Of a stretch of 64,000 nt of DNA, positions 1 through 38,909 are shown piece after piece (within the stretch, counting starts at the first letter, position 1; the number at the start of each line of letters is the position of its first letter). Where the stretch lies: NCBI GenBank assembly GCA_015654675.1, contig JAATGM010000019.1, positions 62,001-126,000 of the forward strand. The letters are read 5' to 3'. The position numbers were made by a program, and so were the translations under genes. Under the pieces are notes generated by a model. The model did not search any database. It saw only the letters and a program-made list of their open reading frames with translations, and had not been told where the DNA came from. This DNA is from Planctomycetota bacterium (lineage in GTDB: Bacteria; Planctomycetota; Phycisphaerae; UBA1845; UTPLA1).

Positions 1-2800
1 CGTTCCAGATGCCGCCCGCGCCCCACTGGGCCGAGTTATTGCTGGCGGTGCAATTGATGAAACTTGCCGAGGAGCCGCTCCATTGTTCGGCGGTTGCACC
101 GTAGCCGTCCGTCGACGTATTGCCGCTGAAGACACAATTGGTGATGACCGGCGTGCTGGCGTCGGTGACGAAGACGCCGCCGCCGCCCCATTCGCCAGTG
201 TTACCGAAGAAGCGGCAGTTGGTGACGACGGCCGAGCTGTGGTCAGCGATCCAGACGCCGGCGCCGTATTTCGCGTGGTTGGCTGTGAACGTGCAATCGC
301 GGATGGTGGGCATGCTGGCGAAGGATACAACGCCACCGCCGCTCCAGCCGGAGGTGTTTTGATTAAACGTGCAATTGGTGATCGTCGGCTGACTGCCGTT
401 GGACATGCCGATCGCGCCGCTGCTGCCCGTGACGTTAACAATGGAGCCGCCGGTATTGGTGGTAAAGGTAGAGCCAGTGACGACAGGGCTGGCGGCGTAG
501 ATCCAGATGGCGCCGGCGTCGTTGGCGCCGACGTTGCTCGTGAATGTGCAGTTGTTGAAGTGTGCATTCGCACCGTCGTGGCAATAGGCGCCCGCGCCGA
601 AGGTGGCCGTGTTGCCGGTAAAGGTGCACTGGGTAAGCGTTGGTGAGTTGGGAGACGTGCCGCCGGCAATGAAACCGCCGCCTCCGTTGCCGAGGGCGGC
701 ATTGGTGTTGAAGTTGCACTGTGTCAGCGTCGGACTGGCGTTCCAGCTTCCGAACGCGCCGCCCCATGGCGACATGTTGCTGGTAAAGGTGCAGTTGGTG
801 AAGGTCGCGCCGTCGCTCAGTTCGCAGTTGACCGCTCCGTAGTCGGCGGCGGCCGTGTTGTTGGTGAAGGTGCAGCCGGTGTAGGCGGGAGAGGACTGAT
901 AGCTGCTCGCCGCGCCACCGAGCGAGCCGGCCGTGTTGGCGTCGAAGGTGCAGGAAACGAATTGGGAATTGGAGCCGTCACTGTCGCTTGCTCCTCCGCC
1001 AATGGTCGCGTTGTTGGCCGTGAAGCGGCAATTGCGAATGGTCGCGCCGCTGCAGCGAGACCGGTAACCGCCGCCGCTTTCGTTGGGGTATCCGTCATTC
1101 GCATTGCCGGCGGTGATGGTGAACCCGTCGAGGATGGCGGTCGAATTCAATCCGGTGCCGTCGACGACGTGATAGGAATTGTCGGAGTTGTCTCCCGAGA
1201 CGCCGATGTCGCCGGAGAGAGTGGTGACGTTGGCGGCGATGTTTCGCTGGGTGAGAAGCGATTCCGTGCCATTGAAGCCGCCGTAGATCGAGACGCCGTT
1301 GATCGGGCGGAATGAAAGATCACGTACAAACAGTGGATTCGTTTGGCCGCGATTGGGCTTGTAGGTCCCCGCAGCGACCCAGACTTCGGTGACGACGCCG
1401 CGCGATGACACGGCCTTTCCAATTCCCGCCTGGAGATCCTGAATAGCGGTGGCCCAGGATGAACCGTCGCCTCCGGGAGCAGCGGCCGCTCGAACAAAGA
1501 GTCGACTGGGCGGCGGCGAGACGAGCGTGCTCGGACGGAAGTTTGCAATGGTGAAGGCCGTGTTGTTATGGGTGAGCACGTTGTTGCAGGACGTATTGAT
1601 GTCGTCGCCAGCGACTCCCATCGCTCCGTGGTTTCCAAGCGGGCCGTTGTAGTCCATGTTGGGGTTGGAGAAGTAGAGAATGTTCGTGCCGGGCGGATAG
1701 GCCATGATGGTCTTCCAGACGCTGCCGGGCTCGCGATAGCCATAGGAATAATTGAAGAAGCCGCAGCAGGGTGTCGTGACGCGATCATGCTGGCAACCAA
1801 AGTTGTGGCCGACTTCGTGGGCGAGAGTTTCGAAGGGGGCGTTGTCCTGTCGCATGACGCCAAAGGTGGAGCGGCCGTCGTCATCGGGGCCGAGTGTTGC
1901 GAGGAAATAGGCGGCGCCGCCGGCATCGAGGTTATTGACGAAGAGGAACACGAGGTCGGCACCGTATGTGTCGCGGTCGGCGTGGACGCTGTCGAGGAAG
2001 CCGTCGGACGGATTAACGAGGCGCGGCAGGTCGGTCGCATAGACGCCGGTCTCGGTGTAGGAGATGAGAGCGGTGCGTACGATGCGGACGCGCGGGTTGA
2101 CGTTGCTGTTGGCGTAGGCCTGATTGGCGATCGACGCCGCCTGCGTGATAAGGGCATTGATCTGGGGAACGCCACCGGCTGCATCGCGAGCGGCGGCGGT
2201 GTAGACCACCATGATGTCGATCATGCTGCCATCGTCGGCGGAGTAGCGGGCGAGCGGTGAATTGGCGACCGGGCACACCGGAACGGCACCGCGGGGCTGC
2301 ACGGGCGGGGCGAGGTTAGCCGCGCCGCAGTAATCGGCAGTGAGTTTGGATTCATCGAATTTTCGAGCGACGAGCCGGCCGGTGGCGTCCTGGCGGATGT
2401 CGAATCGACCGATACCCGGCGCGGTGATTGAGGCGACGAAGACCTCGCGCTGAAAGGTTGCGACGACGGTGCTGTTGGGTATGCCAACTAACTGGCCAAA
2501 CGCAGTGAAGTCGTCCGCCGACCGATTATCGAACTGATCGAAACGGGCATGGAATACGGAATCTGAAGAAAGCGCGATATCAACAGTCGCGTTGCTTCGA
2601 AGCTGAGCGAATACGTTGAGGTCGACACTGACGGGCACGGCAGACGCGACGCCCGCGTTCCTGGCGGCGACTGAAATTGACCCGCTATCGATCGCGCCGG
2701 CGGAGGGCATGACAAGCTTTGGCGAATCCGATGCTCGGACCGTTGGCCCGCAAATAAACGCGCCGGCAACCGCGGCAAATATGAGAAATCTTCCCAACAT
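1..2800 (-). CDS. Secreted metzincin-type zinc metalloprotease with right-handed beta-helix tail (3' end cut by window)
   Basis: The gene starts at the ATG complementary to 2798-2800, with GGGGAG just upstream, and stays open to the left edge, so at least 933 residues are present and the C-terminus is missing. Residues 1-23 form a signal peptide. The catalytic site HEVGHNFGCQHD lies at residues 328-339, giving the metzincin HExxHxxGxxH signature with the following Asp seen in reprolysin-like enzymes. From about residue 430 the protein becomes a repetitive segment rich in 'NCTF..N.A' units with Gly/Asn turns, typical of parallel beta-helix (polymorphic outer-membrane-type) domains. It is probably exported and acts on or outside the cell surface. 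Substrate unknown. A C-terminal sorting signal or dockerin, as in the other metalloprotease of this window at 51112, would lie beyond the edge. Confidence 0.85.
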   Translation of the reverse strand, partial: MLGRFLIFAAVAGAFICGPTVRASDSPKLVMPSAGAIDSGSISVAARNAGVASAVPVSVDLNVFAQLRSNATVDIALSSDSVFHARFDQFDNRSADDFTAFGQLVGIPNSTVVATFQREVFVASITAPGIGRFDIRQDATGRLVARKFDESKLTADYCGAANLAPPVQPRGAVPVCPVANSPLARYSADDGSMIDIMVVYTAAARDAAGGVPQINALITQAASIANQAYANSNVNPRVRIVRTALISYTETGVYATDLPRLVNPSDGFLDSVHADRDTYGADLVFLFVNNLDAGGAAYFLATLGPDDDGRSTFGVMRQDNAPFETLAHEVGHNFGCQHDRVTTPCCGFFNYSYGYREPGSVWKTIMAYPPGTNILYFSNPNMDYNGPLGNHGAMGVAGDDINTSCNNVLTHNNTAFTIANFRPSTLVSPPPSRLFVRAAAAPGGDGSSWATAIQDLQAGIGKAVSSRGVVTEVWVAAGTYKPNRGQTNPLFVRDLSFRPINGVSIYGGFNGTESLLTQRNIAANVTTLSGDIGVSGDNSDNSYHVVDGTGLNSTAILDGFTITAGNANDGYPNESGGGYRSRCSGATIRNCRFTANNATIGGGASDSDGSNSQFVSCTFDANTAGSLGGAASSYQSSPAYTGCTFTNNTAAADYGAVNCELSDGATFTNCTFTSNMSPWGGAFGSWNASPTLTQCNFNTNAALGNGGGGFIAGGTSPNSPTLTQCTFTGNTATFGAGAYCHDGANAHFNNCTFTSNVGANDAGAIWIYAASPVVTGSTFTTNTGGSIVNVTGSSGAIGMSNGSQPTITNCTFNQNTSGWSGGGVVSFASMPTIRDCTFTANHAKYGAGVWIADHSSAVVTNCRFFGNTGEWGGGGVFVTDASTPVITNCVFSGNTSTDGYGATAEQWSGSSASFINCTASNNSAQWGAGGIWN

Positions 2801-2957: not shown

Positions 2958-5432
2958 TTAGCCGCGTGATTGAGCGCGAATGATGTCGCTGGCCTGATTG
3001 GTGGTGAGATTCAGGGCACCCAGGGCCTGCGACGCAGCCGTGCGAATATCGAGGTCTTTTTCCTGTTCAGAGACCTTTACGATCTGATCAACCAGGCGAT
3101 TTTCGAGCTTGTTGCCGATCAGCCGGGCCGATTCCGCGAGCGAACCAAAGGTGGCGACGCGCTGGGCTTTGCTGTTCTTCACATTCAACGCTGCCTCAGC
3201 GAGGCCCTTCTGGGCAGCGGCCGTCGGCGAGACCGCCAGGGCGGCGGCGGACTTGATACGGAGTTCCTCGCTTGGCTGGGCCAATGCGTCGATCAACGCG
3301 CCGTCGGCGCGGGACAGTTCGAAGACAGTGGACCGCGCGATCGCGATGAGACGAAGCGCCTCGGCGGCCTGAATGGCCAGACTAAGTGATACATTCTTGT
3401 CGAGCGATTTCATGCCGAGCGTGCTCGACGCGTCGGACAGCTTGCGCGTCACGGTCTGGGCGATCTTCTCTTCGGCGGCATCGACCTTGAGCACGTCGGA
3501 GAGAATGGTCTCGACTCCGGTGTAATCGCGGGCGACGTTTCCGGCGGCGCCGGTTTGTTTGGGCTTGCTCACAATCAGCAACGGAACGGTAGCCGTCTCG
3601 GGCCGGCGGCGCAGGTCGGCGATGGCCTCGGCGAGCGGCGGCGATGCCAAATCGCTGGCGACGAGGACGGCGTCAAAGGCGGGGACGTTGGCTTTGCGGG
3701 CAAGCTCCAGGGCCGAATAGAGAGACTCGTCGGAATAGACTTCGTAGTCCATCGCGCGAAGCACGGACTGAAATGCATTTCGTGTCTGCGAATCGGGATC
3801 GGCGACGATGGCGTAACGCTTGCTTGACTGTCCGAGCGCTTCGGCGAGGGCTGGGACGACGTTTTGCGCACCGGGGAAACCAGACGTGGGCAGAGCGCGG
3901 GCCAAGGCCAGGGCGGCTTTCACGCGGACCAGTCGGTTGGGGAACTCGAGCGCGCGAACGAGGGCCTGCTTGACGTCTTCCGGCCCGACAAGACTTGACG
4001 GCCCAGCCGTGGTGGCGAGCGCGGCGATTGTGCCGATGGCGACAGCGGCGTCACGATCTTTGACAGCGCGGGCCAGGGCCATGTGGTTGTAGAGCGGGCC
4101 GGCTGCGCGAGCGAAGTAGATGGAGCGCGGGTAGTTCTCCGGGCGTGTTGCGTCTTTCTCGGCGAGTGGCGAGGCGGCTTCCGACTCGACATCCATGCCG
4201 AGCTTGGCTTCGCGCTGGAAGTCGGCGGCGATCCAAACGGCGATCGAGTTGGCGTCGGATGTGGCGAGTTCCAAAGCGGCTTCGGCGGAGCGCATGGCCA
4301 TGACGTCGTTGAAGATCGCCCGAGGAACGGGGACGTAACGGAGGGCCTGGGCCTCGTCGTCGAAGTACCAGACGTTGGCCGTATCGACGCGCGAATCAGC
4401 CCGGAGCGATTCGGCGTCGTCGTAGTATCCGTCAGCGAGCATGCGGAAGAGCACGGCCGCATCGACGGTGCCGGTCTTATTGCATGCTCCAAGGGCTTCT
4501 CCGGCAGCGGCCTTCACCTGCGGGGTGGCGCTGGAGTCGCTGGAGACGATTCGTGCGAGATAGGGGGCGGCCTGCGGGTAACCAATGCTGCCCAAGGCGC
4601 GAATGAGGATCTCGCGTGTGACCTGGTCCTTCATGTTCAGGGCGATCACGAGGGGGTTCAAAGCCGAGCGGCCCATGAGCGGGAGCAATTGCATGATGGC
4701 CGGGTGGAGGTCGCGCTTCTTGGGGTCCTGCAGGTATGCAATCAAGGCGGGCACCGCATATTCGCCCGACGACTTGAGGAAGTTGGTGGCCTGATAGACG
4801 ACGCGCGGCGGGCCGCCGAGGCGTTCGACGTTGACTTCGATTTCGGCCGGGTCCATGCGGAGGGCGAGCGCGCCCTCTTCGAGCACCTTCATGACGAGCT
4901 TGGCCGACGGGCCTACTTCGGTGTTGGCGACGAGCTTGGTGAGTGTCTCCGAGCGGGCGGGGTTGTAGCGAGAAAGCTCGAGCAGCGCGACCGGGTCGGG
5001 GTTCGAGTCGACCAGGGCCTTGAAGTTCGCATCGGCGTAGTTGAAGCGACCAATGGCAGCAAAGTGCCAGCCGTCTTCGGCGAGTTGCCTCTGGCGGCGG
5101 CCATTCTTGATTTGGTCGACGAGCTTCTTTCCGACGTCTCCGAGAACCTTGTCCTGAACGGCTTGCTCAAAACGAAGCGTTCCGGAGCGATCAGCCATGA
5201 GCGCGAGTCGAAGGTCGGAGAGCTTCATGGCGGCGACGGCATTGAAGGCCTTGGTGGCGTCGTCGGGTTTGTCTTCTTCGAGGGCTTTGATGCCGCTCGA
5301 CCAGAGCGCCCATGCCTTGCCATCCTGGCCGACCATGTCGTCAGTGATTTCCTCCGCGCGGGCATGCGGCGCGGCGGTCAGGAAGGCGATCGCGAGCGAA
5401 GCGAGAAATATTCGCGAAAGGAAGGTGGCCAT
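2958..5432 (-). CDS. Exported HEAT-repeat protein with an internal degenerate receiver-like domain
   Basis: An 824-residue protein. The start at 5432 is chosen because it is preceded by GGAG and begins a clean signal peptide (MATFLSRIF... ending near APHARA); an upstream in-frame start would bury this signal. The N-terminal half has TPR/HEAT-like helical repeats. Residues about 540-650 resemble a CheY-type receiver (beta1 AIVADPD, FDAVLVASD, PLLIVSKP). At the usual phosphoacceptor position there is Ala592, and the first acidic-pocket residue is Ala544. Helical HEAT-like repeats resume to the C-terminus. A phosphorylation-competent receiver is therefore unlikely, and a scaffold role outside the cytoplasm is the simplest inference. 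A sigma70-like promoter lies upstream at 5561-5589. Function unknown. Confidence 0.85.
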   Translation of the reverse strand: MATFLSRIFLASLAIAFLTAAPHARAEEITDDMVGQDGKAWALWSSGIKALEEDKPDDATKAFNAVAAMKLSDLRLALMADRSGTLRFEQAVQDKVLGDVGKKLVDQIKNGRRQRQLAEDGWHFAAIGRFNYADANFKALVDSNPDPVALLELSRYNPARSETLTKLVANTEVGPSAKLVMKVLEEGALALRMDPAEIEVNVERLGGPPRVVYQATNFLKSSGEYAVPALIAYLQDPKKRDLHPAIMQLLPLMGRSALNPLVIALNMKDQVTREILIRALGSIGYPQAAPYLARIVSSDSSATPQVKAAAGEALGACNKTGTVDAAVLFRMLADGYYDDAESLRADSRVDTANVWYFDDEAQALRYVPVPRAIFNDVMAMRSAEAALELATSDANSIAVWIAADFQREAKLGMDVESEAASPLAEKDATRPENYPRSIYFARAAGPLYNHMALARAVKDRDAAVAIGTIAALATTAGPSSLVGPEDVKQALVRALEFPNRLVRVKAALALARALPTSGFPGAQNVVPALAEALGQSSKRYAIVADPDSQTRNAFQSVLRAMDYEVYSDESLYSALELARKANVPAFDAVLVASDLASPPLAEAIADLRRRPETATVPLLIVSKPKQTGAAGNVARDYTGVETILSDVLKVDAAEEKIAQTVTRKLSDASSTLGMKSLDKNVSLSLAIQAAEALRLIAIARSTVFELSRADGALIDALAQPSEELRIKSAAALAVSPTAAAQKGLAEAALNVKNSKAQRVATFGSLAESARLIGNKLENRLVDQIVKVSEQEKDLDIRTAASQALGALNLTTNQASDIIRAQSRG

Positions 5433-32297: not shown

Positions 32298-33743
32298 TTA
32301 TTCCTCTTTGTCGGTCAGCAGGACGCGCCGCTCGAAAATGGCCGGGTCGATCTTGGAGCCGTGCGAATTGAGCCGGTCCAGAAAGGCCGGGCGAAGGCCG
32401 GTTGCAATGAAATGGCCGAATGCTTTTCCGGACGCGTCGATGCCTAGCTGCTCGAACTTAAAAATCTCCTGCATGGTCACCGCTTCGCCTTCCATGCCCT
32501 GAACCTCGGTGATCGACATGATCTTTCTCGGACCGCCGGTAAGGCGGGCGGAGTTCACGAGCAGGTGTATGGCGGACGCGAATTGCTGCCGGATGGCTTT
32601 CACCGGCAGATCGAAGCCGGCCATCATGACCATCGTTTCGACGCGCTGCATCGCATCGCGCGTGCTGTTGGCGTGGATGGTGGTCATGGAACCATCGTGG
32701 CCGGTGTTCATGGCCTGAAGCATGTCGAGCGTTTCCGGTCCGCGGCACTCGCCGACCACGATTCGATCGGGGCGCATTCGAAGGGAGTTGATGAGGAGAT
32801 CGCGAATGGCGATTCGGCCTTTGCCTTCGATGTTGGGCGGGCGCGACTCAAGCCGGACGACGTGCGGCTGACGGAGCTGAAGTTCGGCGGCATCCTCAAT
32901 CGTGACGATCCGGTCCGTATCGGGAATGAAAGTCGAGAGGTTATTCAAGAGTGTCGTTTTTCCAGATCCGGTGCCTCCGACGACCAGAACATTGAGCGCC
33001 CCGTGAACGCAGGCCTTGAGAAAGGTGACCATCTCGGGTGCCACGCTCTTGAATTTGATGTAGTCGTCCCAGGTGATCGGATCCTTTCCGAATCGTCGAA
33101 TCGAGAGCGATGGGCCGTCGATCGCGAGTGGCGGAATAATGGCGTTGACGCGTGAGCCGTCCTTCAGGCGCGCATCGACCATCGGCGTGACTTCGTCGCA
33201 GCGTCGGCCGACCGACGAGCAAATCTTGTCGATGATGTGCAGCAGGTGGCCGTTGTCGCGAAATCTGACAGTTGAAACCTGAAGCTTGCCCTTGCGCTCG
33301 ATGTACACCTGCTTGGGCCCGTTAATCAGGATGTCGCTGATGTTCGGGTCGGTGAGCAGTGTTTCGAGCGGCCCGAGCCCGAAGGTCTCATCAAGGATTT
33401 CTTCGATGAGTTTCTGACGGTCGTTGACGTTTAGCAGGGCGTTCTCGGCCTGGCACAGATTCGCAACGGCGACGCGCACTTCGTCGCGGACGTCCTGGCT
33501 GTTGCGCTGGCTGAGCACAGTCAGGTCGAGTTGTTCGACCAGTTTGCGATGGATGCGGCTCTTGAGATCGTACCACTGCTCGGATTGGTCGTTGGGGCTG
33601 GCTTCCGGCCGCTTAGCCGCGGGCGTGGCGGGTTGGGCGGGCGAGGCGGGCGCCGCGCCGGCAGTCGGCGGCGTGGTTGCAGGCGAAGGTGGTGGCGGCG
33701 TCTTGGGAATCTTGAGAAGCGTCTGCGTTGATTTTCCGAACAT
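32298..33743 (-). CDS. tadA: Tad pilus secretion ATPase TadA/CpaF
   Basis: A 481-residue GspE-superfamily hexameric ATPase that powers pilus assembly. Walker A is [16 protein letters not shown]; the Asp box, His box ([15 protein letters not shown]) and [12 protein letters not shown] are present. A Pro/Ala-rich N-terminal linker of about 55 residues precedes the conserved [24 protein letters not shown] precedes the ATG at 33743. Confidence 0.95.
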
Positions 33744-33778: not shown

Positions 33779-35008
33779 TCAGGCCGGTGCGACAACGGGT
33801 GCGGTCGCGTTGGTGCCGCGTTGCATACCTTTGAGAAATCGCCCGAGCATGCCCGCGGCCTTGGACCCCTGCGGGGCCACCTGCGGACTGTGGATCTTGG
33901 CGGCCAGGTCTCGCACGGCCTGGCGAATCTTCGTGCGGCCGGACTCGGCCGCGAGCGGCTTGCCGACATTGATCGCTGCGCTGACCGTCTTCCAGTCGTC
34001 GGGCAACGTGTGGAAGAGTTTGGTGTTGAGCGTTCGCTCGACCTGATCGGATTCGAGATGGCCTGAATCGCGACCAACCCGGTTACAGATAAACTGCATA
34101 CGCGCCGGATTGAACCCCTGCCCGGCCAATTCCTGGAGCATACGGTCGGCGTTGCGCACGCCGGTCACGAGCAGCTGCAGCACCATGAAGTTGTAATCCG
34201 CAACATCGAGAATCATTCGCCCGCCCGGGTCGCTGCGCATGGGGCCATCGATGACCACATAGGCGCACATTTCCTGCAGAACCGAAATCACGTTGACGCA
34301 GTGCGCGGCGGTGATGCACTCCGCCTGTTGAAACGTATGCGGCCGACCGAGGACGTGCAGCCCGGAGGCGTGCTTGACCAACGCCTTGTCGATCATGTTG
34401 GGATCGACTTGTTCGGGCGTGGCGCAGAGGTCGGCGACCGTGAACTGTGGAGAGAGATCGAGAATCGTGCCCACCTGCCCGAAGCGGAAGTCGAAATCGA
34501 GCAGGGCGACCTTCTTGTCGGCGCCCGCCAGGTCCGCGAGTTCAACGGCCAGATTTGTCGCAACAAATGTCGCGCCGACTCCGCCCGCGCATCCCATGAC
34601 CGATATGAGCTTTCCCGGTTCGCGCGTCACGATGCGCTCGGCTCCGATCTTTTCGAGGATCGGACGCAATTCTTCCGGCGCGAACGGCTTGAGCAGGAAT
34701 CCCTTCAGCCCGGCGCGCATGGCGCGGAGCAGGATTTCGCCGTCGGTATTGGAGCTGATCGCGACAACGGGGAGCCGGTGTTGCGCGATCTGGATTTGCG
34801 CGATCACTTCCAGAACGACGAGCGCGAGCGGATCGAGATGCGCGATCACGACGTCGCACGGAAATTGCGCTACCGCCTGCGGCAACAGACTCGGTTCGTC
34901 GATTTCGGCGACGATTCGAACGTCCGCTACGGCGTTCAACGCCTGGCGCAGCTCGACGGCGTACGCCTCGTCGGCGTTAAAGAGAATTGCACGAATCGGG
35001 GTACCCAT
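33779..35008 (-). CDS. tadZ: Tad pilus localisation protein TadZ/CpaE
   Basis: A 409-residue protein with an N-terminal receiver-like domain (about 1-120; FLLKPFAPEELRPIL) and a ParA/MinD-type ATPase domain with a deviant Walker A (GCAGGVGATFVATNLA). In other Tad systems this protein places the machinery at the pole. The receiver shows CDVVIAHLDPLALVVLE, with His at the usual Asp position, so it is likely non-phosphorylatable, as is common in TadZ. The gene lies between tadA and tadG. Confidence 0.9.
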   Translation of the reverse strand: MGTPIRAILFNADEAYAVELRQALNAVADVRIVAEIDEPSLLPQAVAQFPCDVVIAHLDPLALVVLEVIAQIQIAQHRLPVVAISSNTDGEILLRAMRAGLKGFLLKPFAPEELRPILEKIGAERIVTREPGKLISVMGCAGGVGATFVATNLAVELADLAGADKKVALLDFDFRFGQVGTILDLSPQFTVADLCATPEQVDPNMIDKALVKHASGLHVLGRPHTFQQAECITAAHCVNVISVLQEMCAYVVIDGPMRSDPGGRMILDVADYNFMVLQLLVTGVRNADRMLQELAGQGFNPARMQFICNRVGRDSGHLESDQVERTLNTKLFHTLPDDWKTVSAAINVGKPLAAESGRTKIRQAVRDLAAKIHSPQVAPQGSKAAGMLGRFLKGMQRGTNATAPVVAPA

Positions 35009-35102: not shown

Positions 35103-37013
35103 TTAATCGATCAGACGAACGGGACGCTTCCCTCCCAACTCGTTGAAAATTGCATTCAACTGAGAAACGTATCGGGGTTGACCGGTAATCGGGTCCGGGG
35201 CGCTATCGGCGTAGAAATACTGCCCACCGCCGATATCCGCGATGCTCTGGAGCAAGTCGGGATCGGCGTCTCCGCCCAGCCCCACGGCGTAGATCGTGAT
35301 GTGCTGGTTGGCCGCCGCGGTGGCCCGATTGATGCTGTAGGCCTCGGGCGACATACTTCCGGAGCCGACGTTCGGCTTGCCGTCAGTCAACAGAATGATG
35401 ACCTTGGCCGCCGCACTGCGTGCCCGCACGCTGGTGAGTTCGGCGAGCCCCTGGTTGAGCCCGGCACCGATATTCGTCGTGCTGTCATAGTGCCCGGCTT
35501 GGCGTTGATAAAGAGTGGCCGGAACGACCTGCAATGCCGTAGCCAGCGACTGGCCGGCCGACGGAATGGTGAGATTGACTTCGTGACGCGATGACGTCGC
35601 AAAGACCTCAAGCGATACGTGGTCCTGCGTATCGAGACTGACAATCAAATTGATCATTGTCTGAACCGCGTCCTTGGCCGAGCGGATCGGCATTTCGGGT
35701 GCGGACGGAAGGTCAGAGCAAGTGTCATTGCTGGCCTGCCGCTCGAGCAGATAGTTCACGACGGTTTTGATGCCGTAGCGATAGCGGAGCGTGCTATCGG
35801 TGTAGTACATCTGCGTATTGTTGGCGCTGACATAACTGATGTAGTCGTTCCAGGAGCCGCCGGTCCACGGCCAGGTCCGCGTCTGCGTCAGCTCGCTGGT
35901 ATCGACGATGTTGTCGCCGTTGCCGGTGCCGGTCCATTTGCCGCCCGACTTTCCGCTCTTCCAGCCCGCCAGTCCGAGCAGGACCGTGACGCGATTGGTG
36001 TAAGCGGTGAAATTGCTGTCGTTCGTACCGGCCAACAGCGCCGTTCGTTCGGCCGACGAGTAGCCGTTTTCTGTCAGGTTCGCGGTGATATCGCTGGCGC
36101 TCGTCGTCGAGCTGCGCGGGATGTAATACAGTCCCCAATCAGCCGAGGGGTTGTATTGGCCGAGGGTCAGCGCGGTTCCCCAGTCGGTCATCCATCCAAA
36201 GCGCGGTCCGGCCGGGTTACCACTTCCGCTGGCCGGCTCTTCATTTGGATCGGGGTTGCCCTTGACGCTGTGCGGAACGCCGGCGCCTACGGATGGCTGA
36301 GCTTCGCCCGCGGTGGGTGCGGACGGCGGCGTCGCCGGGGCCGCTCCGTTTCGGATTCCCGCACGCCCCTTTGCCGAGGGCAATGCGCTCCAGATGTCCT
36401 TCAAGTTGATCTGCACGGCCGGGCGCGTGCCCTGCACCTCAGATGCGAAATTCTTGTAGTGCCGCAATTCGCTGTCGTCGTTCATTGAGCCGGAGAGATC
36501 GAAGACCACAGCGATGTCCCGCGGGACAAGCATGGCGGTCGCACTGGCCGTGATCGAGGCGCCAGTGGCGCTATAGGCCCCGCCGAAGATGAGCGGGACG
36601 CGCGGCTTATGGACATTCGATCCGTCGCGGCGAACCGTCACCTTGACGGCGTCGTACGGCGTGACGTTTGGCTGAAACTGGTATTTTGCCCCGGTGAGAA
36701 TGGCGTGACCAAACACCAGGTCGCTGGCATCCACGAAGGCCGGGGTGCCCTTGACCTTGTTCTGGGCCGCGATGCTGGCAGCTTGCGCGGCCGCATTGGC
36801 GGAAGCACTAGCGCCTGAACCCAACTGCAGGGCGGCCGCGAGGGCCGCGGCATCGGCGGCGGATTGGAGCTCGCCGCGCGCGTTGAAGAGCATTCCCGTA
36901 TCAACGGTCAGCGCCATCGCGCCGACACCCACCAGCGAACCGAATACTGCCGTCTGGACCAGGACTGAACCGCGGCGCCGACTCCGAGCGCGTCGAACCA
37001 ACTTCGCAAACAT
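35103..37013 (-). CDS. tadG: TadG-like pilus protein with von Willebrand A domain
   Basis: A 636-residue protein. The N-terminus has a TadE/G-type anchor (RRGSVLVQTAVFGSLVGVGAMALTVDTG) followed by the conserved ARGELQSAADAAALAAA. A VWA domain begins with the MIDAS motif VFDLSGSMNDDS and ends with KVIILLTDGKPN and ITIYAVGLGGDADPD. About 250 residues are inserted between these VWA pieces. It would be an exposed minor component or adhesin. The ATG at 37013 follows GGGGGG; a TTG at 37037 is less likely. Confidence 0.88.
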   Translation of the reverse strand: MFAKLVRRARSRRRGSVLVQTAVFGSLVGVGAMALTVDTGMLFNARGELQSAADAAALAAALQLGSGASASANAAAQAASIAAQNKVKGTPAFVDASDLVFGHAILTGAKYQFQPNVTPYDAVKVTVRRDGSNVHKPRVPLIFGGAYSATGASITASATAMLVPRDIAVVFDLSGSMNDDSELRHYKNFASEVQGTRPAVQINLKDIWSALPSAKGRAGIRNGAAPATPPSAPTAGEAQPSVGAGVPHSVKGNPDPNEEPASGSGNPAGPRFGWMTDWGTALTLGQYNPSADWGLYYIPRSSTTSASDITANLTENGYSSAERTALLAGTNDSNFTAYTNRVTVLLGLAGWKSGKSGGKWTGTGNGDNIVDTSELTQTRTWPWTGGSWNDYISYVSANNTQMYYTDSTLRYRYGIKTVVNYLLERQASNDTCSDLPSAPEMPIRSAKDAVQTMINLIVSLDTQDHVSLEVFATSSRHEVNLTIPSAGQSLATALQVVPATLYQRQAGHYDSTTNIGAGLNQGLAELTSVRARSAAAKVIILLTDGKPNVGSGSMSPEAYSINRATAAANQHITIYAVGLGGDADPDLLQSIADIGGGQYFYADSAPDPITGQPRYVSQLNAIFNELGGKRPVRLID

Positions 37014-37139
37014 TGTCAAACCCCCCGCACCAGGCAATCCGCTCGCAAACCGCCCGCCGCCTTACGGCGACGCACGCTTCGCGTCAGCGCCTTTGCTCCG
37101 CGACCTCAGATCGGTCGGCGGCGATCGTTCTTGCCCCCG

Positions 37140-38909
37140 CTACTGTCCGTCTCCGTCGTTGTACGACATGCCATAAGGCCCGCGCAGCGACGGCGGCGAT
37201 TTGCTCATGGCGGCCGCGTTTTCGTTGGGCCACACGTTTACCGGAATATCCGCCCGCGGCACATCAGTCGGCTCGGGCATCGGGACTTTGGCGCCCTCCA
37301 ATTGCCCATACAGGAACAGCTCAGCATCGTTCGGATGATTCATCAGCTGGCCAGGCACAGGTCCGACTTGTTGCGGATCGAGCGGCGCGACCAACTCCGG
37401 CGTCACGAGCACGATCAGTTCCGTGTTCTCGCGTGTATAGCTGACCGACGAGAAGAGCGATCCGATGACCGGAACATCGCCGATGCCCGGAATCTTCGAC
37501 GCGCTGGCGCGAACCGTTTCGTTCAGCAGCCCGGCCATCGCGAATGTCTGGCCGTTACCGACCTCAACGGTGCTCTCGAATCGCCGCGTCCTGAAGGCGG
37601 GAATGGCGAATCCGTTGACGACGATCTGACGAGTTGGATCGACGTCGCTCACTTCCGGTCGGACGACAAGACGAATGATCTGTCCCTTGTCTACGAACGG
37701 GACAAACTCGAGTTGGATGCCGAATTTCTTATACTCGACCGAGAAGGTGTTCTGCAGCGCGAGCGGAATCGGGATCTCGCCGCCGACGAGGAATGTCGCC
37801 TTCTGGCCGTTGATGGCGGTGACGTTCGGCTCGGCCAGGACTCGCACAAGTCCGTTTCGGCGCAAGGCCTGGACGAAGAATTGCAAGTCGGCGCGAGGAA
37901 ATCCGAACGTAAGATTCTGATTCCCCACGCCGTTCTGGTAGGGCAGCAACGTGAACACCTGTTGCCCGACCAGCAGGTTCTGCAAGCCGCGATTTTGTAC
38001 AAATGTCGGATTGATGGCGTCGAGATTGTTGCCGACGAAGAAATCGCGCGTCCAGTTGGTGCCGCCCACAAACCAGTTCACGCCCAGTTCGCGCAGGGCC
38101 GTCTTGTTCACCTCGGCGACGGTGCAACGGATCAGTACTTGCTGCGAGCCGGCCACCATCATCTGGTTGCGAACCTTGCCGGGACTCATCAGTTCGGCGA
38201 CTTCGGCGACGCGCGATGCCGTGGTTGAATCAGGGACCGAGCCGGTCAGCACGATGGTGTCGAACAAGCTCTGAGCGCGAACGTGGCTCAGTGGCGCGAT
38301 CGACTTCACCAGGTCTTCGAGTAACTGAACGTTGACTTCAACTAATACGTCGTAGATCAGCTGCTCGCCGTCTTTCGTTTGCAACACGAGTTGCGTGGAA
38401 CCGAATTTCTTTCCGGTCGTGACCACCTGGGTGGGCGACAGGATCGCGACATCGGCGACTTCCGGTTGCGCGATGGAAGCGGTGTTGATCGGGCGGCTCA
38501 GCTTCAGAATGACTGATTTGTCCTTCACGATACGAAGCAATTGCGAAGCGTCGGTCGGCTGCTGCACGGTGGCCGTGAAGGGCACTTTGGCGGCCGGCGT
38601 CGCCGGTGGCAGAGTGATCGGAGCAGTCGGTTGTGCGACGACCGGAGCCGGCGGCTCGGCCTGCGCGATCAGCGTGGCCGATCCGAACGGAAGCGGCTTC
38701 GCATCGCGCGGCTCGTTCAGCGCAATGGGAATGACTGACGCGGCCGGGGGCCCGATATCAGCGTCGAGCGACTCGAGCAGACAGTCGACGTCGTCGGCGG
38801 CCGCCACGGTCGAGAACACCGCGCAGAGAATCGGCGCGAGTAGTCGAAGTCGCGCAACGGAACGGCGCCGCCGGTCGAATTGCGAAATGGTTGGGGATTT
38901 GCCGCTCAT
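37140..38909 (-). CDS. rcpA: Tad pilus outer-membrane secretin RcpA/CpaC
   Basis: A 589-residue secretin forming the outer-membrane channel of the Tad system. A signal region (LLAPILCAVFSTVAAA) is followed by a Pro-rich segment, an N0/BON-like domain (KSVILKLSRPINTASIAQPEVADVAILSP) and the secretin domain (VRVLAEPNVTAINGQKATFLVGGEIPIP, GNGQTFAMAGLL, IPGIGDVPVIGSLFSS, ELIVLVTPELV). The ATG overlaps the cpaB stop by four bases (ATGA). Confidence 0.94.
   Translation of the reverse strand: MSGKSPTISQFDRRRRSVARLRLLAPILCAVFSTVAAADDVDCLLESLDADIGPPAASVIPIALNEPRDAKPLPFGSATLIAQAEPPAPVVAQPTAPITLPPATPAAKVPFTATVQQPTDASQLLRIVKDKSVILKLSRPINTASIAQPEVADVAILSPTQVVTTGKKFGSTQLVLQTKDGEQLIYDVLVEVNVQLLEDLVKSIAPLSHVRAQSLFDTIVLTGSVPDSTTASRVAEVAELMSPGKVRNQMMVAGSQQVLIRCTVAEVNKTALRELGVNWFVGGTNWTRDFFVGNNLDAINPTFVQNRGLQNLLVGQQVFTLLPYQNGVGNQNLTFGFPRADLQFFVQALRRNGLVRVLAEPNVTAINGQKATFLVGGEIPIPLALQNTFSVEYKKFGIQLEFVPFVDKGQIIRLVVRPEVSDVDPTRQIVVNGFAIPAFRTRRFESTVEVGNGQTFAMAGLLNETVRASASKIPGIGDVPVIGSLFSSVSYTRENTELIVLVTPELVAPLDPQQVGPVPGQLMNHPNDAELFLYGQLEGAKVPMPEPTDVPRADIPVNVWPNENAAAMSKSPPSLRGPYGMSYNDGDGQ

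Follow-up and report, generated by a model that had tools for sequence, protein, structure and literature searches.

Accounts of receivers and pseudo-receivers treat them as cytoplasmic parts of signalling systems. Aspartate-less receivers and pseudo-receivers have in common the (beta-alpha)5 fold and homology to receivers, and lack catalytic residues, the phosphoacceptor aspartate included (PMC4395418; PMC12632262); what the receiver fold does once its switch is gone has been called a mystery (PMC12632262). The main texts of these two surveys make no mention of the periplasm, secretion or signal peptides, and a literature search, with subscription papers outside its reach, found no exported, periplasmic or secreted pseudo-receiver. 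In FrzS of Myxococcus xanthus the receiver lacks the aspartate and does not bind Mg2+, and polar localisation inside the cell is controlled by this pseudo-receiver without phosphorylation (PMC1974792). The FrzS receiver (2gkg, 2i6f) ranks near the top in both the profile and the fold matches of the domain described below, with the difference that FrzS acts inside the cell whereas the similar fold here appears to lie across the membrane. HEAT and alphaRep solenoids (HEAT_2; 6ft5, 4jw2) resemble the same protein in repeat fold and sequence on both sides of this domain, but the matched solenoids carry no receiver insert. Nor do we know of any HEAT repeats or export signal in FrzS.

Here we describe a gene in which these kinds of part are brought together. 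Within the window, by which we mean the whole 64,000-nucleotide stretch of Planctomycetota DNA that was analysed, an open reading frame with its ATG at position 5432 and its stop at 2958 encodes 824 amino acids that combine a signal-like N-terminus, a HEAT alpha-solenoid and, inserted into the solenoid, a degenerate receiver (Table 1). Compared with the receivers surveyed previously (PMC4395418; PMC12632262), this domain lies inside a HEAT solenoid, accompanies an export signal and scores below the Pfam receiver cut-off; the parts are of known kinds, while their combination and location appear new. On balance, and with moderate confidence, we favour a predicted extracytoplasmic HEAT scaffold whose aspartate-less pseudo-receiver serves as a phosphorylation-independent binding module. 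This is the most economical account, and the 'binding or scaffold module' suggested in a preliminary description of the locus would fit it.

Table 1. Features of the HEAT/pseudo-receiver gene, in window positions
Feature	Position	Strand	Basis
Whole gene, exported HEAT/pseudo-receiver protein (predicted)	2958..5432	minus	ORF; orthologues align over approximately full length
Signal-peptide-like segment, residues 1-26 (PHARA/EE)	5355..5432	minus	heuristic scan, not SignalP
N-terminal helical pairs (TPR-like), residues 28-120; most variable mature part	5073..5351	minus	model, conservation
First HEAT solenoid block, residues 121-340	4413..5072	minus	Pfam HEAT_2, model
Most conserved block, residues 341-450	4083..4412	minus	model, conservation
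HEAT repeats before insert, residues 451-534	3831..4082	minus	model, fold match, conservation
Pseudo-receiver (beta-alpha)5 domain, residues 538-671	3420..3821	minus	profile, model, fold matches
Asp545, first pocket acid (DD1), retained	3798..3800	minus	profile alignment, conservation
Pro546, second pocket acid (DD2), lost	3795..3797	minus	profile alignment, conservation, residue counts
Ala592, phosphoacceptor Asp position, lost	3657..3659	minus	alignment with receivers, conservation, residue counts
Asp594, D+2 position	3651..3653	minus	conservation
Ser622-Lys623, T and T+1 positions	3564..3569	minus	conservation
Ser645, invariant-Lys position, lost	3498..3500	minus	residue counts
C-terminal HEAT block, residues 672-824; solenoid resumes after insert	2961..3419	minus	model, fold match

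The gene occupies exactly the interval given in the preliminary description, which did not state its strand. Since the minus-strand protein is matched over approximately its full length, at 50-58% identity, in 16 of 16 other genomes of its family, open frames on the opposite strand over the same bases were set aside as by-products of GC-rich sequence. Of 120 relatives, 111 have the protein (69 of the 71 good genomes). With a threshold of E 1e-30, 168 of 294 sampled Planctomycetota genomes were matched; as some of these matches cover only part of the model, 168 sets an upper limit on the number with a full-length member. A single-sequence scan of named genomes returned one relative, a Phycisphaerae MAG.

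Most of the mature protein is a helical solenoid. Pfam HEAT_2, whose cut-off is 27.7 bits, matches the whole protein in four stretches at 61.7 bits, which places it in the HEAT-repeat class and confirms the HEAT repeats reported earlier; the model contains TPR-like helical pairs at residues 28-120. AlphaFold2 modelled the whole protein from 56 aligned sequences with a pLDDT of 92.9, and alphaRep solenoids align to it from residue 475 to residue 823, thus flanking the receiver on either side. Foldseek with the whole protein returned generic solenoids only (CAND1, PP2A-A, karyopherins) at TM-scores of at most 0.25, and therefore the HEAT part yields no indication of function. The best-conserved block includes a beta hairpin at residues 351-370, and its conserved residues include W355, W400, M378, M380 and Y439. 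This stretch, with its invariant Trp355 and Trp400, is not part of the receiver, and no Pfam model matches it above cut-off.

Pfam's receiver model scarcely detects the inserted domain. Tested alone against PF00072 (Response_reg), the window's domain scored 14.1 bits (E 0.056), below the curated cut-off of 30.2; with the whole protein as query no receiver match was obtained in Pfam or NCBIfam, HEAT_2 alone exceeding its cut-off, and the protein is not among the 41 Response_reg matches in its genome. Searches with the Pfam receiver model miss such members. Among 54 relatives, 30 have domains that match Response_reg at E values up to 1, and a profile of all 54 domains, searched against 177,635 PDB sequences, found PleD as its best match (E 4.7e-10, more than expected by chance), along with FrzS, CheY, PhoB and KdpE; receiver proteins make up nearly all of the best 60 matches listed. 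In the AlphaFold2 model, strands at residues 539-544, 563-568, 588-592, 618-622 and 640-644 alternate with helices in a (beta-alpha)5 arrangement, and the domain modelled alone reaches a pLDDT of 93.3. VIA-align 2 matched it to 3grc_A (Z 15.4, rmsd 2.5 Å, 124 residues) and to 4d6x_A (Z 15.6, rmsd 2.1, 115 residues). When Foldseek was given only this domain, receivers and response regulators accounted for almost all of its best 50 matches. The preliminary description had placed a CheY-like block at about residues 540-650 and proposed comparing a predicted structure with receivers; the models, the two structural searches and the profile match at E 5e-10 converge there on a clear receiver fold. 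Receiver homology together with this predicted (beta-alpha)5 fold makes the domain a pseudo-receiver as defined in PMC12632262.

The residues on which receiver chemistry depends are largely gone (site names DD1, DD2, D, T and K follow PMC12632262). Ala592, correctly singled out at the outset as the phosphoacceptor position, aligns with the phospho-Asp of receivers, and the loss of the aspartate is real and lineage-wide: among 50 members of the window's order this position holds Ala in 36, Gly in 7, Ser in 7 and Asp in none, so that the domain belongs to the aspartate-less receiver (ALR) class. The first acidic-pocket position, by contrast, had been misassigned to Ala544, a core hydrophobic position of beta-1 where 109 of 117 members have V or I; Asp545, which is retained, is the first acid, at a position acidic in 47 of 50 (Asp 44, Glu 3), and the acid that was lost is the second, at Pro546 (DD2 kept in 1/50). 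Loss of the invariant Lys, at Ser645 and in all 50 members of the order, had gone unmentioned. Ser622 provides a permitted Ser at the T position of the window protein, where just 11 of the 50 have Ser or Thr. With DD2, D and K missing, the window protein shows the loss of residues typical of pseudo-receivers, and not one of 118 receiver-bearing members keeps all five. Across the phylum the domain has evidently been drifting away from phosphorylation, since Asp stands at the phosphosite in only 10 of 117 members, none of them with the full set of five, and its presence or absence changes at least eight times on their tree. The protein does not class as a response regulator of a two-component system, given the lost site residues, the export signal and the lack of any recognised kinase gene among the recurring neighbours. 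Because Asp, the second acid and Lys have been lost, and because it would be held away from cytoplasmic kinases, the domain should not take part in His-to-Asp phosphotransfer.

In the scaffold account that we favour, a Sec-type signal peptide would direct export, and the HEAT alpha-solenoid would form an extracytoplasmic scaffold, with its very conserved middle (residues 341-450) doing the main work there. The degenerate receiver, set between two HEAT repeats and keeping its predicted (beta-alpha)5 fold, would most likely present a fixed protein-binding face for which no phosphorylation is needed, and the former active site, apparently rebuilt to a charged cluster (Asp545, Asp594, Lys623), may lock the fold or join the binding site. 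A fold known from inside the cell thus seems to have been put to new use outside the cytoplasm, as a binding module. The locus points to a predicted envelope protein of Planctomycetota that is conserved yet uncharacterised and, if export is true, a family that spans most of the order and is widespread in the phylum offers a natural test of a receiver fold without its switch.

That a charged cluster replaces the phosphosite is a hypothesis suggested by conservation. Pro598 and Pro617 are present in 50 of 50 members of the order, Asp594 in 45, Lys623 in 42 and Asn552 in 41; the scores of Asp545, Asp594, Lys623 and Asn552 (3.3-3.8, against a domain mean of 1.56) are among the highest in the domain within the order, and Asp545, Asp594 and Lys623 map to the former active site. 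In known receivers the D+2 and T+1 positions affect active-site access and chemistry (PMC12632262). Such a cluster could instead form a small-ligand or metal pocket: at the sheet's C-terminal edge, Asp545, Asp594 and Lys623 would bind a periplasmic ligand, and the HEAT arms would change shape when it binds. This unlikely but live rival to the scaffold account draws on the conservation and placement of these residues, together with the conservation of Asn552. However, neither direct Mg ligand (DD2 or the phospho-Asp) survives, conservation of the cluster is limited to the window's order, and covariation among Asp545, Asp594 and Lys623 found no support in too few events (for Asp594 with Lys623, two independent pairs agreed in direction and none opposed it, p 0.5). 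More speculatively, extracytoplasmic pseudo-receivers could be phylum-wide and the order's rebuilt pocket a new site of binding which, by way of the HEAT scaffold, reports on the envelope, an idea that we hold to be doubtful; if the pocket was indeed rebuilt in this way, a receiver domain would be serving, outside the cytoplasm, as a sensor or binding module.

The other live rival, which we rate as quite improbable, takes the receiver to be a tolerated and mainly structural insert without an active role, whose removal would disturb the packing of the solenoid. The domain's mean conservation score of 1.56 is lower than that of the flanking HEAT parts (2.0-2.4), and the receiver is missing from six members (families f18 and f19), in which two HEAT helices join directly; one further row without it (L133) looks broken. 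Being less conserved than its flanks and absent in one clade, the receiver may matter little. Against a passive insert, that one clade and the broken row are the only cases of absence, most members across the phylum keep the domain, and within the order it has strict positions (Pro598 and Pro617 in 50/50, Asp594 in 45/50). The tree carries no outgroup, and counts alone do not separate gain of the receiver from loss; loss in the f18/f19 clade is nevertheless the simpler reading because the receiver is present in all other main groups.

Export is inferred from the N-terminus. The protein begins with MATFLSRIFLASLAIAFLTAAPHARA, followed by EE, a segment composed like a Sec/SPI signal peptide; among orthologues the signal-like feature is kept although the sequence varies, and the cleavage site is often followed by Q or E. 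A home-made heuristic scan for a charged start, a hydrophobic core and a small-x-small cleavage site found a signal-like N-terminus in 120 of 124 family members; in the controls, 28 of 620 internal Met sites and 43 of 600 shuffled N-termini passed the same scan. For the family the scan could choose from several start codons per gene, which favours it, and the controls had no equal choice, yet despite this advantage the gap is wide. The four exceptions also have hydrophobic N-terminal stretches by eye, and a signal-like start is present as well in the ten members whose phosphosite holds Asp. The signal peptide of the preliminary description is matched by these family-wide sequence features, and the protein may be Sec-exported. 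That the protein is cytoplasmic, its hydrophobic N-terminal segment being something other than a signal peptide, is very unlikely, given that so many relatives retain the charged, hydrophobic and small-x-small pattern in otherwise variable sequence. Hardly credible is a working phosphorelay receiver with a displaced aspartate such as Asp594, which does lie two residues from the usual site and has ten relatives elsewhere with Asp at the usual position, but which sits at D+2 and not at the end of beta-3, in a domain with DD2 in 1/50 and Lys in 0/50 of the order, an export signal and no kinase gene recognised among recurring neighbours.

The neighbouring genes of family loci revealed no operon or binding partner conserved across the family. 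In one family (f4), a small signal-peptide-bearing protein follows the HEAT/pseudo-receiver gene by 5-168 bp at 11 of 11 loci. It is a weak lead as a partner, because it is encoded elsewhere in the window's genome (G000:C3:496-993) and is present in three genomes (G018, G026, G031) that yielded no HEAT protein; across the order it is common, away from the HEAT/pseudo-receiver gene in other families. One copy (L062:4134-4967, minus strand) has no Pfam match, and the protein occurs in 55 of 61 genomes searched. In the window, the downstream gene (2-2800, minus strand) encodes a signal-peptide-bearing protein, in which right-handed beta-helix repeats come after a reprolysin-like metalloprotease domain, and runs off the window's start, and upstream lie divergent genes that by eye resemble glycolate oxidase subunits; neither neighbour is conserved across the family.

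Elsewhere in the window, the product of a minus-strand gene at 16639-18297 matches signal peptidase S26 in two stretches; at 553 amino acids it is unusually long for such an enzyme. At 33782-35008, also on the minus strand, lies a CpaE/TadZ-like protein in which a degenerate receiver (35.3 bits to Response_reg) is fused to a ParA-like ATPase. Its receiver-like domain, too, lacks the typical phospho-Asp, with His at that position by eye (VVIAHLDP); unlike the HEAT/pseudo-receiver protein, it has no export signal by eye, carries the ATPase fusion and belongs to a Tad-pilus-like cluster, adjoining genes for a T2SSE-type ATPase (32301-33743), a Tad/VWA protein (35106-37037) and a secretin (37143-38909).
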